DNA from: an uncultured Piscirickettsiaceae bacterium
GTDB lineage: Bacteria; Pseudomonadota; Gammaproteobacteria; Methylococcales; Cycloclasticaceae
Direction: 5' to 3'
NCBI GenBank assembly: GCA_913061075.1
Contig: CAJXSK010000006.1
Span: 62,001-126,000, forward strand
DNA length: 64,000 bases
Shown here piece after piece: positions 3,196 through 54,483 of the stretch. Under the pieces are notes generated by a model that saw only the letters and a program-made list of their open reading frames with translations, searched no databases and was not told the DNA's origin. Each line of letters begins with the position of its first letter. Position 1 is the stretch's first letter. The position numbers and the translations under genes are program-made.

Positions 3196-3284
3196 CCTTC
3201 TTGAATAAGGAACGCTGCGACAGGGCTCCCCTGCTAGGCTTATTCAAGGTGTCGATTTTACATCGATTAGTTAACGGCGTTCAT
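3196..3284 (+). promoter_or_regulatory. S-adenosylhomocysteine (SAH) riboswitch
   Basis: The leader of metK has the SAH riboswitch architecture. P1 is CTTGAATAAG (3200-3209) paired with CTTATTCAAG (3239-3248). It encloses the conserved core AACGCTGCGAC, a small CAGG/CCTG hairpin and GCTAGGCT. A second small hairpin follows (3252-3266), then AACGGCGTTC (3273-3282), whose GCGTTC pairs with GAACGC (3210-3215) as the pseudoknot. The known class binds SAH and turns on SAH-recycling genes; here ahcY is the second gene. The match was made by eye, so a covariance search would be the formal test. Confidence 0.88.
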
Positions 3285-3375
3285 TATTAACAGGAAACTG
3301 AAATAGTGAGCGTGGTGTTTGGATGATTAAGTTCTTAATCATTCATCGGTAAGAATTCACTCAACCTATTTTCAG

Positions 3376-25233: not shown

Positions 25234-25476
25234 ATGGCTAAAAACACAAGTATTACATTGGGTGACCACTTTGATGGATTTATAACCGGACAAGTTAAAA
25301 GTGGTCGTTTTGGCTCTGCAAGTGAAGTAATTAGAGCGGCGCTTAGATTGCTTGAAAATACTGAAACCAAGCTTGAAACTCTGAGGCATATGCTAACTGA
25401 AGGTGAGCAGAGTGGAATTGCTGACTATAACTACGATGAGTTGATGGAAGAACTTGATAGCGAAAATGATAAATGA
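25234..25476 (+). CDS. parD: ParD-family antitoxin (type II)
   Basis: 80 aa. The ribbon-helix-helix start NTSITLGDHFDGFITGQVKS and GRFGSASEVIRAALRLLE are classic ParD/CC2985 signatures, and the acidic C-terminus wraps the toxin. It represses its own promoter in known systems, matching the inverted repeat over the -10. A GAGGTGA ribosome site precedes ATG. It overlaps parE by 4 bp. It lies in an integron cassette but is oriented against the array, as is common for cassette-borne toxin-antitoxin pairs with their own promoters. Confidence 0.92.
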   Translation: MAKNTSITLGDHFDGFITGQVKSGRFGSASEVIRAALRLLENTETKLETLRHMLTEGEQSGIADYNYDELMEELDSENDK

Positions 25477-25775
25477 AAGCATTTGAGCTAACTAAAGTGG
25501 CAAAAGATGACTTGAGGAAAATTGCAAGATTTACTGAAAAACGTTGGGGAAGAGGCCAGCGTTTTTTGTATATTAAACAATTTGATGAAGCCTTTCATTT
25601 ATTAGCTGAGCCCCCTGCGCTTGGTAAGCAATGCGATTTTATTAAAGAAGGGTACAGGAAGTTTCCTCAAGGTGGTCATATCCTTTTTTATCGGGAGGCC
25701 TCAAAAAGTAAAATAATTATAATTCGCATACTTCATAAAAACATGGACGTAGAATCAAAATTTTTACACACATAA
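25473..25775 (+). CDS. parE: ParE-family toxin
   Basis: 100 aa of the RelE/ParE fold: LTKVAKDDLRKIARFTEKRW near the N-terminus and GYRKFPQGGHILFYREAS with the closing IIRILHKNMD. ParE toxins block DNA gyrase. The ATGA overlap with parD ensures co-translation. The stop lies inside the ACATAAC box that starts this cassette, so the reversed gene fills the cassette completely. Confidence 0.92.
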   Translation: MKAFELTKVAKDDLRKIARFTEKRWGRGQRFLYIKQFDEAFHLLAEPPALGKQCDFIKEGYRKFPQGGHILFYREASKSKIIIIRILHKNMDVESKFLHT

Positions 25776-26124: not shown

Positions 26125-26207
26125 GTATAACGGCAGCCGACATTAGACGGAGCGCGAAGCGGCGTAGTCTCACAAAGACAATGCTTCATTGTCGGCTGCC
26201 GTTAAAT
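26125..26207 (-). repeat. attC site of the ORF-less first cassette
   Basis: Minus strand: R'' ATTTAAC, then perfect 11-12 bp arms (GGCAGCCGACA / TGTCGGCTGCC) around a loop of about 45 bases, then R' GTTATAC. 83 bp long. This is the strongest folded attC of array 1. Confidence 0.85.
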
Positions 26208-26241
26208 CGGACTGCTCGTGATAGCGAGCGGTCCGATTTAA
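26131..26241 (-). other. ORF-less 111-bp integron cassette
   Basis: The cassette next to attI has no room for a gene. Between its start box GTTAAAT and end box ATTTAAC lie only 28 bases, which themselves pair, so 26201-26242 is a 42-bp near-perfect palindrome (two mismatched bases, six-base loop). The rest of the cassette is the attC arms. It is two nested hairpins in tandem. Confidence 0.75.
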
Positions 26242-26336
26242 CTTGTTGTTAACAGGAATCATAATTCCCTTTAATTTTTATATATAGTGTGCATAAAATT
26301 CCTGTTAATATAATAATAAAGAGCAAACAGGGAATT
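26239..26336 (-). other. attI site (primary integron recombination site)
   Basis: Lies between the intI start and the first cassette. On the minus strand the crossover is CAAG|TTAAAT. It contains three copies of an AACAGG(G)AATT element: 26251-26259, the inverse 26297-26306, and 26326-26336. These fit integrase-binding repeats. A 78-bp part aligns without gaps to 52316-52393 at the head of the second array. Confidence 0.75.
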
Positions 26337-26341
26337 GTTTC

Positions 26342-27364
26342 ATGCCTCTACAAGGAAAGTCTAAAGCAAAGTCTCGATTCATACCACAGTCGCTTCGTTT
26401 GATGGATCAAGTTAAAGAAGTGCTGCGTTACCATCACTATGCTTCACGAACGGAAGAGTCTTATACACATTGGATTCTTGCTTTTATACGTTTTAATAAT
26501 AAGCAGCACACTAAGGAGTTAGGAAAAAAGCATATCGAAGCTTTTCTATCACATATGGCTATGAATAAGAATTATGCTGCTTCAACACAAAACTTAGCAC
26601 TTAACTCAATCGTATTTCTTTATAAGCAAGTTCTAGGGCTGCCAATAGCAGATGATTTGGCACCTATTCGGTCTAAAAAGAAGGTTCGACTGCCGGTTGT
26701 ATTAAGCCAAGGAGAAGTTCTTGAGGTGCTTAAGAATATGAATGGTGTTCATTACTTATTGGGACAATTGATGTATGGCGGTGGCTTACGCGTAATGGAA
26801 GCATTGAGGATGCGCGTACAAGATATTGATTTTGCCAATGGTTATTTATTAATTAGAGATGGCAAAGGCGGGCAGGATAGAACTACTATATTAGCACCAT
26901 CGGTTGTGTCACAGCTGGAATTACATTTGCAACAAACCCGACTCCAATTTGATATGGACAGAAAAGATGGGCTGCCAGGTGTTTTTTTACCGGGTGCATT
27001 AGAACGAAAGTACCCGAATGCGGCACTAACTTGGGGTTGGCAGTATGTTTTTCCTTCAAAGAGTTTGTCAAAAGACCCTAGAAGTGGAATAACAAGACGC
27101 CATCATTTAGATGACTCTACGCTGAGAAAAGCCATCAACTACGCGAAAAGAAAATCGAATATTGACAAAAGGGTAACGAGCCATACCTTTCGACATTCGT
27201 TTGCAACCCATTTATTAGAAGCAGGCACAAATATTCGTGTGGTTCAAAAGCTGTTAGGTCATAAGGATGTTAAAACAACGGAAATTTATACCCACGTATT
27301 ACAGCAAAACTTAGATAAGGTAATAAGCCCGTTAGAGCGACTTAAGGAGCTGGATAATGAATAA
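26342..27364 (+). CDS. intI: Integron integrase (tyrosine recombinase IntI)
   Basis: 340 aa. N-terminal SAM-like core-binding domain (HHYASRTEESYTHWILAF), then the catalytic domain with R in GGGLRVMEALRM, and HTFRHSFATHLLEAG, LGHKDVKTTEIYTHV giving the H-R-H-Y set. The integron-specific extra patch between boxes is present: YPNAALTWGWQYVFPS followed by DPRSGITRRHHL. That patch separates IntI from XerC/D. The frame looks intact, so the enzyme should be active. It ends overlapping the next gene by 8 bp. No LexA box of the CTGT-N8-ACAG form was found upstream. Confidence 0.95.
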   Translation: MPLQGKSKAKSRFIPQSLRLMDQVKEVLRYHHYASRTEESYTHWILAFIRFNNKQHTKELGKKHIEAFLSHMAMNKNYAASTQNLALNSIVFLYKQVLGLPIADDLAPIRSKKKVRLPVVLSQGEVLEVLKNMNGVHYLLGQLMYGGGLRVMEALRMRVQDIDFANGYLLIRDGKGGQDRTTILAPSVVSQLELHLQQTRLQFDMDRKDGLPGVFLPGALERKYPNAALTWGWQYVFPSKSLSKDPRSGITRRHHLDDSTLRKAINYAKRKSNIDKRVTSHTFRHSFATHLLEAGTNIRVVQKLLGHKDVKTTEIYTHVLQQNLDKVISPLERLKELDNE

Positions 27365-48967: not shown

Positions 48968-49549
48968 CTAAAATTTCACCAAGCCAGAAAAGCCCATAAA
49001 AGCAACGGACATTAAGCCGGCTGTAATGAGCGCAATGGCGTTGCCTTTGAAGGGTTCTGGTACATCAGATACGCTGATGCGTTCACGCATGGTTGAAAAC
49101 AAAACAAGCACTAATGAGAAACCTACCGCCGCACCAAAACCATACAAGGCAGATTCTATAAAGTTGTGGTCTTCTTGAATATTGAGCAAAGCAACGCCCA
49201 GTACCGCACAGTTGGTGGTAATCAATGGCAAATAAATGCCCAATACTTGGTATAGCAATGGGCTTGTTTTATGCACGATAGCCTCAGTTATTTGCACAAC
49301 TACCGCTATCACGACGATAAACGTGATAGTTCGTAAATACTCTAAACCGAGTGGGTCTAATAAATATTGGTTGGCAAGGTAACTACAAATGGACGCTAGC
49401 GTTAATACAAATGTTGTTGCAAAGCCCATGCCCATAGCGGTTTCTAGCTTGTTTGAAACGCCCATGAAAGGGCACAAACCAAGAAACTTTACCAACACGA
49501 AGTTGTTAACCAGTATGGTGCTAACTAAAATGAGTAAATAGTCGGACAT
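48968..49549 (-). CDS. rnfA: Rnf electron transport complex subunit A
   Basis: 193 aa, six membrane helices, first gene of the rnfABCDGE operon. Motifs: [37 protein letters not shown] and the membrane Cys residues that hold a [2Fe-2S] cluster in the family. The 180 bp upstream is an AT-rich divergent region shared with the TMEM220-like gene, with no clear operator. Confidence 0.96.
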
Positions 49550-50116: not shown

Positions 50117-50155
50117 GGGTAACGCGTGCGAGGGGCTTTGACGCACTTGTTAGTT
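50117..50155 (-). repeat. Short attC site of the relBE-like cassette
   Basis: Minus strand: R'' AACTAAC, complement of the cassette's own start GTTAGTT; then AAG, a GTGCG/CGCAC stem, and R' GTTACCC. At 39 bp it is short, with a small loop. Confidence 0.6.
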
Positions 50156-50173
50156 GCCCATATAAACACTTGA

Positions 50174-50706: not shown

Positions 50707-50796
50707 AACTAACGTTTGAGTTAACCGGCCTTTTTATACAGAGCAGAGTGAAACGACGCGCCGTATAAAAAGGTCGGGTTGAATGGCTTGTTAGCT
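50707..50796 (-). repeat. attC site of the 144-aa cassette
   Basis: Minus strand: R'' AGCTAAC, AAG, the arms CCGACCTTTTTATAC and GTATAAAAAGGCCGG with one mismatch in 15, then TTAACTCAAAC and R' GTTAGTT. 90 bp. The best-formed attC in the window. Confidence 0.92.
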
Positions 50797-51225
50797 GTTG
50801 TTATATGCATTTAGTATTTTTTTACTTAACTCTACTAGTTCAAGATAAGTCATATCATTTTTAGCATCATTTGTACGCCATGCACAAATTTTAAAATATG
50901 CCTCGCCTGTACCATCACCGACATGATCTACTGAAGGCAGTAATGCAAATTGCTTTTTGTAATAGCGCCCATGTTTTTTAGATTGCTCGTTATTGTATTT
51001 ACTTAATAAAGACCAATCGAGTTGTTCATTGGTATATGCATCTTTTCCTTTTGATTCACACACAGCTTTATGAATTGCAATTTTGTATGATTCGTTTGTT
51101 GCTGTTGTATTACCACGTGCCTTATCTCTTTTTACGTGCGCTACAGCTTTACGAGACAACCACCGTTCATATGTCTCTTGCTCTACAAATTCTAATAGTT
51201 CATTGTTAAGTTGATATTTACGCAT
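50791..51225 (-). CDS. Cassette protein of unknown function with a DH...N..K pattern
   Basis: 144 aa, Lys-rich, soluble. Starts MRKYQLNNELLEFVEQETYE and ends in LSKKILNAYNNS. The stretch LLPSVDHVGDGTGEAYFKIC then WRTNDAKNDMTYLEL has the spacing of a degenerate HNH-like fold (DH, N, K followed by an acidic helix), but one of the usual histidines is missing, so nuclease activity is only a thought. The TAA stop is inside the attC R'' box. Confidence 0.65.
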   Translation of the reverse strand: MRKYQLNNELLEFVEQETYERWLSRKAVAHVKRDKARGNTTATNESYKIAIHKAVCESKGKDAYTNEQLDWSLLSKYNNEQSKKHGRYYKKQFALLPSVDHVGDGTGEAYFKICAWRTNDAKNDMTYLELVELSKKILNAYNNS

Positions 51226-51235
51226 GTTTTTATAC

Positions 51236-51298
51236 AGCTAACGTCTTAGCTAAAGTGCGCGGGGCTTTTTCCGCGTCGCTTTGAGCTGCTTGTTATGT
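51236..51298 (-). repeat. attC site of the 315-aa cassette
   Basis: Minus strand: R'' ACATAAC, AAGC, the arms AGCTCAAAGCGACGCGG and CCGCGCACTTTAGCT (small bulges), then AAGAC and R' GTTAGCT. 63 bp. Confidence 0.88.
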
Positions 51299-51314
51299 AG
51301 CGATTTCTCCACCA

Positions 51315-52262
51315 CTAAAAACACCCCCTCACGTAACCAGAAATCTTATTATACATTGGGGTGAGTTCGTCCAAACTTCCGAGTGCCGTTAAAAATGTTG
51401 CGATCACCAATAAGAATGTAAGCCAAACCATTTTATTTTGAATACTTACCTGCTGACTCTGTATTTTCCTATTTTCTTCTTCGCTTTTTATCTTCTCTTT
51501 TGTCAAAGTGAAGTAATGTATTCCTTTACCCTTAACTTTGTATGTTGGATTTGTATCGTCAATACCCCTTACTTTCTCAATTTCCCCGTCCTCAAGGCAA
51601 GCATCCATAATCCAATCTACAGATTGATTTACCTTCTGGTAAATCTCGTACTCCCCAACGAAGTGATCCCCAAAAATCAGCCTAGAAATATCGCTTTTCT
51701 TGAAAGTACCTCTCCTCAAAAAATCGTCATTATTCATTAACGCTTCGTAAATCTCGAATTTTGACCTGAAGGGTGTTTTTAGCCGTTTTGAAACCTTCCG
51801 TTTCTTGAAGAAGGTTGTAACTTTATGAAACAAAATAACGAAATAAATCGTTCTAAATACTCTATTTGAAAACAGCTTGAATAGAGTAAAAGTCGAACAA
51901 TCGTCCTCCCTTACGCTCCATTTTCCATAGTAGTAATAGACATCGATACGGGCAAACCTTAATGAGTCTCTATTAAGATAGAATTCTGAACTTTCTACAT
52001 CACCTCTAATCCAGCGCCTTCCTTTTATATGCCTATTAACAACAACGCTCGGTTTGGCAGGAATGAACTGAAAATATACGTTTAATGCACCACGACTTAT
52101 TTTTTCTAAATCCCTTATTTCGTCGTCGGTTCCACAGGGGACAATAATATGGACTTCATAGAAGTCGTTTTTATCAGCCTCATCAGAAGTCAACGAGAAT
52201 CTATCAGGACACAAATTATCGGCAAAGTAAGAAATGAATCTTAGTCTTATAGAGCTAATCAT
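51315..52262 (-). CDS. Cassette protein of unknown function with a C-terminal membrane helix
   Basis: About 315 aa from the ATG at 52262 (MISSIRLRFISYFADN), 6 bp after AAAGAG; a longer frame from 52298 has no better site. A first soluble part (VHIIVPCGTDDEIRDLEKIS) is followed by a basic segment near residue 150 (FHKVTTFFKKRKVSKR) and a winged-helix-like region (about 175-245). A single C-terminal helix is at about 275-295 (MVWLTFLLVIATFLTALGSL). It looks like a tail-anchored protein with a cytosolic domain. The cassette is unusually long (1077 bp). No family recognised. Confidence 0.65.
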   Translation of the reverse strand: MISSIRLRFISYFADNLCPDRFSLTSDEADKNDFYEVHIIVPCGTDDEIRDLEKISRGALNVYFQFIPAKPSVVVNRHIKGRRWIRGDVESSEFYLNRDSLRFARIDVYYYYGKWSVREDDCSTFTLFKLFSNRVFRTIYFVILFHKVTTFFKKRKVSKRLKTPFRSKFEIYEALMNNDDFLRRGTFKKSDISRLIFGDHFVGEYEIYQKVNQSVDWIMDACLEDGEIEKVRGIDDTNPTYKVKGKGIHYFTLTKEKIKSEEENRKIQSQQVSIQNKMVWLTFLLVIATFLTALGSLDELTPMYNKISGYVRGCF

Positions 52263-52315
52263 GAACATCTCTTTAATTACCTGAAATCTAAATACCATAC
52301 GGTGCCAGAGCTACA

Positions 52316-52410
52316 TAACTTGTCATTAAGGGGAATGGGTTTTCCCTGTAATTCTTATGCATAGATGGACTATAGTTCCCTGTAATATGATAATCAAGCA
52401 TAAAACAGGA
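52316..52410 (-). other. attI-like site heading the second array
   Basis: The 78 bp 52316-52393 align without gaps to 26239-26316 at intI; by hand count about 54 positions match, including the crossover CAAG|TTA and the ATTA-AGGGA core. It carries an exact 11-bp direct repeat TTCCCTGTAAT (52342-52352 and 52376-52386) and AACAGGAGTTATTG further on, like the integrase-binding repeats of the first attI. Confidence 0.75.
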
Positions 52411-52437
52411 GTTATTGAAATTCCCATAGTAAAGGGC

Positions 52438-54483
52438 TCATTTTATTTTCATACCGGCTTTGGCCCCATCATCTGGCGATAGTAACCAAATATTCTCACC
52501 ACCGGGCCCAGCGGCCAGCACCATGCCTTCTGATACGCCAAAGCGCATTTTTCGGGGCGCTAGGTTGGCTACCATAACAGTAAGGCGGCCTTCTAAATCT
52601 TCAGGTTGGTAAGCGGATTTAATGCCGGCAAACACTTGTTTTGTTTCTTCACCTAGGCTGAGTGTTAGTTTTAATAGCTTATCTGCACCTTCTACGTGTT
52701 CTGCTTTTTCTATTAACGCGACGCGTAGGTCTATTTTGGCAAAGTCATCGAATTCGACGGTGTCTAGTTTCGTGTCAGAATCAGGTGCTTTTTTTGTGTT
52801 GCTCTTTTTTACCGTGGTTGGTTTGGTCGCCGTTAAGGTTTCTTTTGATGCCTCTATCATTGCAGCAAGTTTGTCTGCATCCACACGTGTTAACAAGGGT
52901 TTGAATTTGTTAACAACATGGTCGGTTAACGGTGTAAGTTTGTTTGGCCAAGGTAGCGTTTCAATGTTTAAAAACTGCTCGGCTTTTTCTACCATTTGCG
53001 GCACAACGGGCTTTAGGTAGGCAGTAATGGCATAGAATAAATTAATGCCTACGCTGCAAATGTCGTGTAACTCAGCATCACAGCCTTCTTGTTTGGCGAC
53101 TATCCACGGTTGTTTGTCATCAATGTATTGGTTGGCTTTGTCAGCTAATGCAGAAATCGCACGCATGGCTTTGCCGTATTCGCGTGCTTCGTATAGTTCT
53201 GCAATGTTGACGTTAGCATCCACAAATTCTTGAAACAGAGCCGGTTCGGCGCAGTCGGCGGATAGCTTTCCATCGAAACGTTTTTTAATAAAGCCACTAC
53301 AACGGCTGGCGATATTGACCACTTTGTTGACTAAGTCGGTATCGACTCGCTGACTAAAATCTTCAAAATTCAGGTCTATATCTTCAACTTGGCTGTTTAG
53401 CTTTGCTGCGAAGTAATAACGTAAGTATTCTGGGTTGAGGTGGTCTAAATAAGTGCGTGCTTTAATGAAAGTGCCACGCGATTTAGACATTTTCTCGCCA
53501 TTAACGGTTAAAAAACCGTGGGAGAAAATCGCACTAGGTGTTCTAAACCCAGCGCCTGTTAACATCGCAGGCCAGAATAACGCATGGAAGTAAACAATGT
53601 CTTTACCAATGAAGTGGTACAGCTCGGTTTCGCTGTCTTTGTTCCAGTATTCATCAAAGCTTAGGCCGGTTCTGTCGCACAGGTTCTTGAAGCTGCCCAT
53701 GTAACCCACAGGGGCATCTAACCATACGTAAAAGAATTTACCTGGCGCGTTAGGAATTTCAAATCCAAAGTAAGGCGCGTCGCGTGAAATATCCCAATCG
53801 TGTAGGCCGGTTTCGAACCATTCATTTAGTTTATTGGCCACTTGATCTTGTAGGTGGCCTGAGCGTGTCCATTCTTTAAGCATGTCTTCAAAATCTGACA
53901 ATTTGAAGAAATAATGTTCAGAATCTTTTTCAATAGGTTTTTCGCCAGACACCGCGGAGAAAGGGTTAATTAGATCGGTGGGTGAATAAGTAGCGCTGCA
54001 CATCTCGCAATTGTCGCCGTATTGATCTTTTGCGTGGCATTTTGGGCATTCACCCTTAATGAAACGGTCGGGCAAAAACATTTCTTTAACGGGGTCATAG
54101 GCTTGGGTGATTACTTTGCTATGAATGTGCCCCTGTTCGTGTAAACGGTTGTATATAAGTTCTGAAAACTCACGGGTTTCATCTGAATGAGTGGTGTAAA
54201 AATTGTCAAAACCAACGCCAAATTCGGCGAAATCAGCATTATGTTGCGTCCAAGTGTCGGCAATAAGCTGTTCTGGCGTAATGTCTTCTTGTTGCGCCCG
54301 CAACATAATGGGGGTGCCGTGCGCATCGTCTGCACAAACATAATGGCAGCTATGACCACGTTGTTTTTGAAAACGTACCCAAATATCAGTTTGAATATAT
54401 TCAACTAGATGACCAATGTGAATGGGGCCATTAGCGTAAGGTAGGGCGCTGGTAACGAGAATTTTTCTTTTTTTGGAAGCCAT
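52438..54483 (-). CDS. metG: Methionyl-tRNA synthetase
   Basis: 681 aa, long form with a C-terminal tRNA-binding domain. Class I motifs: [20 protein letters not shown] at the start, the zinc-site Cys set ([17 protein letters not shown]) and KMSKSRGT near residue 333. The last 110 residues ([20 protein letters not shown] onward) are the OB-fold EMAP/Arc1-type domain. Its stop lies next to the attI-like site, so the array was inserted just past metG. Confidence 0.97.

Follow-up and report, generated by a model that had tools for sequence, protein, structure and literature searches.

The cassette array lying just past metG carries no integrase of its own, and the question that it raises is whether the attI-like sequence at its head is a true attI and how it came to stand there. 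The window, a stretch of 64,000 nucleotides from a Cycloclasticus species, contains an apparently intact integron integrase gene, intI (26342..27364, plus strand, 340 aa), whose product matches the integron-integrase subfamily TIGR02249 with 423 bits against a curated cut-off of 265. The resident attI lies beside it (26239..26340, minus strand), with its crossover between 26242 and 26241. We observed that 52316-52393 on the minus strand aligns with the reverse complement of 26239-26316 at 54 identical positions of 78, this being the best ungapped 78-bp match, and no second place with at least 44 of 78 positions identical to the resident attI was found on either strand of the window. These results confirm the first-pass annotation, which had reported about 54 identities over 78 bp without gaps, the crossover CAAG|TTA and paired repeats. 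The two sites are 26 kb apart on one contig and both lead cassettes leftward.

The likeness to attI reaches about 52413, which is 25-30 bp short of the metG stop codon (52438-52440), and the unit is therefore about 95 bp long, not 78, and fits as a whole between metG and the first cassette. This satellite attI (attI', 52316..52413, minus strand) comprises an inverted copy of the outer repeat, TCCTGTTTT, at ~52402-52410, two direct repeats ATTACAGGGAA at ~52375-52386 and ~52342-52352, a ATTCCCCTTAA box and the core GACAAG|TTA, with the crossover CAAG|TTA between 52319 and 52318. It also holds a predicted Pc-like promoter directed into the cassettes (52369..52397, minus strand, TTGATT-17-TATAGT), which matches the consensus at 9 of 12 positions and may be active. 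As regards the properties of an attI, the homology to the intI-side attI includes both the core and the repeats, and the first cassette is joined at G|TT, the likeness stopping at CAAG|TTA where cassette 1 begins. By contrast, the neighbour of the site is metG and intI lies 26 kb off. Therefore, we named the site a satellite attI homologue and not the attI of a complete integron.

Three real cassettes follow at 50.1-52.3 kb, all on the minus strand and each ended by an attC. Cassette 1 consists of an ORF of 327 aa without a family match (51315..52298) and an attC of the TAACAA...CGTTA type, recognized by its sequence (51235..51299); stretches homologous to this attC are present near intI in the genomes G008 and G014, and also in G004, G009 and G015. 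Cassette 2 encodes 144 aa, again without a family match (50791..51225), and its attC (50707..50796; predicted fold of -28 kcal/mol, with 7 of 7 core boxes paired) has homologous stretches at 9 other places within the genus. Cassette 3 is a toxin-antitoxin pair, with an RHH antitoxin (PF20605, 50400..50633), a ParE-family toxin (PF05016, 50174..50413) and a short terminal attC (50117..50159), and it recurs with 91% DNA identity in G011, at another locus and between different neighbours. With three attC at 50.1-51.3 kb and no neighbouring intI, the array is a CALIN, that is, an attC cluster away from any integrase gene. The earlier statement that an attI homologue heads an integrase-less array is right.

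We then compared the flanking genes, metG upstream (52438..54483, minus strand) and its original downstream neighbour rnfA (rsxA, 48968..49549, minus strand), with those of ten relatives. In nine of them metG is directly followed by rnfA without an attI, indicating that the metG array is an insertion; G005 has other DNA there. The first-pass annotation had taken a relative with metG and no cassettes as an argument against an attI; such relatives do exist, nine in number, and what they reveal is the insertion of attI together with cassettes, not a refutation of the attI. No match to the metG site was found in plasmid or phage collections, and the contig bears housekeeping genes. Elsewhere in the window, a SAH riboswitch (RF01057) scored above the gathering threshold at 3201-3289.

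Several observations concern the resident integron. Immediately after the resident attI lies a micro-cassette of ~110 bp (26130-26241), made of a hairpin (TTAAATCGGACCGCTCGC...) and an attC. A relative, in reversed orientation, interrupts the type B attI at C1:319304 of the host genome (G000:C1:319360-319534, L054) with TAG|ATA junctions, which would be consistent with IntI acting on a secondary site, and hairpins similar to that of the micro-cassette follow attI sites in G012 and G015. The region of the resident array also includes a probable toxin-antitoxin pair (25234-25775, plus strand) formed by an 80-aa ORF and a ParE-family toxin. Two more intI-like genes were detected in the host genome, at G000:C1:92229-93179 (L052) and C1:365692-366639 (L053); they are 45-46% identical to the IntI of the window, one has an internal stop and the other lies at a contig end, and their upstream sequences differ.

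To place the metG site among its homologues, we used two models, R1 built from three sites of the host genome and R2 built from 25 sites of the type B subfamily, all from other genomes. With these models, attI-like sites were present in 18 of 18 Cycloclasticus genomes examined, with a maximum of roughly twelve in one genome at the thresholds applied; beyond Cycloclasticus, 3 of approximately 233 genomes of the order gave an attI-model match. Over the core, 72 of the sites form a nearly gapless alignment; 11 of them adjoin intI and 61 are satellites without intI. They fall into two subfamilies, type A with ACAGGGA repeats and AACAAG|TTA, and type B with ACATGG/ACGTGG repeats and AACACTG|TTA. 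Cassettes might instead have landed at metG through a site unrelated to attI, an attG event, the likeness to attI being due to chance or convergence. Such integration is documented (PMC12901181), and the interruption of another host-genome attI by a micro-cassette looks like an attG event. This explanation is refuted, and left with practically no probability, by ~95 bp of homology in near-gapless register with the 71 other sites and by the detection of the metG site by model R2, independent of any host-genome sequence, at E = 1.6e-8. Judged from sequence, the metG site is a genuine second attI, belonging to a genus-wide family of dispersed satellite sites.

The host genome has about six of these satellites: at metG, at mnmE (C5, cassette-free), at C1:217728, at C19:9622, at C4:66526 (degenerate) and at C1:319304 (type B, interrupted by ~175 bp). 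Across the genus, the nearest upstream gene is oriented toward the site in 46 of 58 satellites and many lie within 30 bp of its stop codon; a satellite usually occupies an intergenic region just 3' of a host gene pointing at it. A repeat of ~210-250 bp, 85-90% identical between copies, adjoins three host-genome satellites and is inverted at one (L050:8727-8980, L051:10634-10886, L049:12962-13169). Many type A satellites, for example L050 and L055, are preceded at a distance of 30-40 bp by a motif like CTATGTTATCTTAA; in a search for upstream motifs, suggestive only, 25 of 61 flanks had CATGTTA with one mismatch, against 6.9 expected. We also noticed attI variants with 25-50 bp of extra sequence near the same mid-site position (G006:C20:7049, G013:C20:2452, G005:C20:309855 and G008:C1:2005342, and, as split matches, G004:C4:23083 and G011:C3:196).

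The presence of two sites on one contig, 26 kb apart and with cassettes running leftward from both, had led the first-pass annotation to propose that an integron split or that the resident attI was duplicated to metG. Over the core, the metG site is 85% identical to a satellite of G011 and 81% to one of G001, as against 67% to the resident attI. Moreover, intI and metG are ~11-14 kb apart in G008, G014, G005 and G004, with no attI at metG in these four relatives, and many satellites are found elsewhere in the genome. A search for intI remnants beside metG found none. Consequently, neither the split nor the copying from the neighbouring attI is supported, and we consider this origin very unlikely. 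The resident intI could nevertheless serve the metG site, but the two attI differ at a third of positions and recognition by this IntI is therefore not assured.

The association of satellites with cassettes was evaluated with a home-made heuristic detector of attC based on fold scoring, which finds attC at 6 of 9 intI-adjacent attI. Hairpins resembling attC were observed within 3 kb on the cassette strand at 23 of 51 satellites compared to 17 of 159 control strands (p = 4e-7). The attC detectable by this heuristic concern only about half of the satellites, and the central region of attC aligns badly. The sigma70-like promoter of the metG copy could suggest a dispersed repeat with a promoter or regulatory role that has nothing to do with integron recombination and that attI happens to contain. 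We hold this to be extremely unlikely, because the likeness stops at the crossover, the attC that follow are mostly on one strand and the satellites belong to the family of the intI-adjacent attI.

We also compared the DNA beyond the crossover between species sharing both the upstream gene and a satellite. None of the 22 comparisons, some of which repeat a locus and a few of which pair type A with type B, showed common DNA past the crossover. For instance, the left flanks of G014:1409583 and G001:C55 are 97% identical and the cassette-side DNA is different. Within G015, two satellites with different attI have ~361 bp of cassette side in common, including 120 codons at 100%, the shared stretch extending to both contig ends. 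Insertion was also visible at other junctions. In G017, two genes which we take, from their reading frames, to be moeB and pqqA are separated by a type B attI with cassettes; the junction is bare in G001, with the pqqA promoter, and intact in the relatives without a satellite there. The mnmE|tgpA junction is devoid of attI in G009, G005 and G003. The host genome (G000) has an attI without cassette there, whose crossover coincides with the tgpA stop codon, and in G011 and G006 other DNA comes after the attI. At one place 3' of an HI0933-like gene (G000:C1:217728 and relatives), one species has a type A attI and another a type B, and the same alternation occurs 3' of a 397-aa gene common to G015:C231, G017:C12 and G001:C3; it suggests repeated colonisation or replacement. 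No relative has a satellite at the metG locus with which this one could be compared, and turnover is therefore proposed for other satellites and not for that at metG.

These comparisons bear on a further explanation, in which entire integrons have lost their intI and satellites are what is left of them, with a dead attI remnant and a frozen array. Scraps of the 5' part of intI lie beside 4 of the 61 satellites (G003:C10, G001:C32, G016:C61 and G009:C8:36342) and are compatible with plain decay of whole integrons, intI fragments occur elsewhere in the genus, and the host genome has degenerate and interrupted sites. However, the other 57 satellites have no detectable intI scrap, many lying within 30 bp of the upstream stop codon, the repeats and core remain conserved, and the cassette-side DNA differs in all 22 comparisons. 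Overall, we regard decay as a rather unlikely explanation, and it is probable that the metG site is genuine, one of the satellites found throughout the genus, and that the chromosomal IntI acts on such sites in trans.

As to how satellites arise, three of the four intI scraps are closest to the intI of their own genome, and the occurrence of such scraps suggests the copying of integron heads. One satellite of the host genome, that at C1:217728, does look copied from the resident attI, with 92% identity. An excess of similarity within genomes was clear for type B (p = 0.001) and not for type A (p = 0.12). Another possibility considered was that attI moves as a mini-cassette, the copied stretch being flanked by G|TTA at either end; a pair of sites in G005 fits, but most copies do not and in a few the left end runs into intI. 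We favour a scheme in which integron heads, made of attI and variable scraps of intI, would be copied to new places with a variable left end, most of them later keeping only attI. The chromosomal IntI would then act in trans on these distant sites, integrating circular cassettes at G|TT and cutting them out again, and one integron would run several small arrays round the chromosome. In its broadest form, that of a distributed integron whose single IntI maintains active sites of attI plus promoter throughout the genus, placed 3' of host genes and each serving to express captured cassettes, and whose attI multiplies in the genome, possibly through IntI itself, we judge this scheme to have an even chance of being correct.

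In the usual description an integron has one integrase, one attI and one array, so that good expression is limited to the first cassettes, those near Pc. If the distributed organization is true, many attI per genome mean many first positions, and some integrase-less arrays would be live outposts, not relics. Both the action of IntI in trans on a distant attI and the way in which attI spreads can be tested now. As searches based on attC clusters would miss single-cassette and empty outposts, such outposts may be under-counted elsewhere.

Compared to known systems, the Cycloclasticus integron resembles sedentary chromosomal integrons in its chromosomal intI, which belongs to the TIGR02249 family, and in having attI, attC and toxin-antitoxin cassettes, but it has many attI per intI, whereas one attI per intI is, to our knowledge, the rule. 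The integron of a Cycloclasticus symbiont is listed as In0 in one paper, and our search of the open literature returned neither multiple attI in Cycloclasticus nor dispersed attI populations. The attG sites are likewise chromosomal positions that receive cassettes away from intI (PMC12444791, PMC12901181), but they do not resemble attI, and the Cycloclasticus sites are attI homologues. In the Delta-attI-type cassettes of class 1 and 2 integrons, an attI away from its intI is recombined by IntI1; this attI, mostly truncated, takes the place of the cassette's attC (PMC12901181), whereas those of Cycloclasticus are full-length sites at the head of arrays, situated in intergenic DNA of the host. 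CALINs are found at recurrent loci in Xanthomonas (PMC12444791), and those of Xanthomonas and other genera are similarly cassette arrays apart from intI that recur at a few loci (PMC12444791, PMC9668308). They are defined by attC clusters, the Xanthomonas study requiring two or more attC, and no head attI appears to be reported for them; in contrast, many Cycloclasticus satellites have one or no detectable attC and would be missed by such a definition. Finally, the Shewanella prophage M16-3 includes a CALIN with its own attI, a Shewanella-type attI heading both the intI-side array and the integrase-less array of one element (PMC9892861). That is a single case in a cryptic prophage, whereas the Cycloclasticus sites occur in several copies per genome and throughout the genus, in host intergenic regions, with cassette-side DNA that differs at shared loci.
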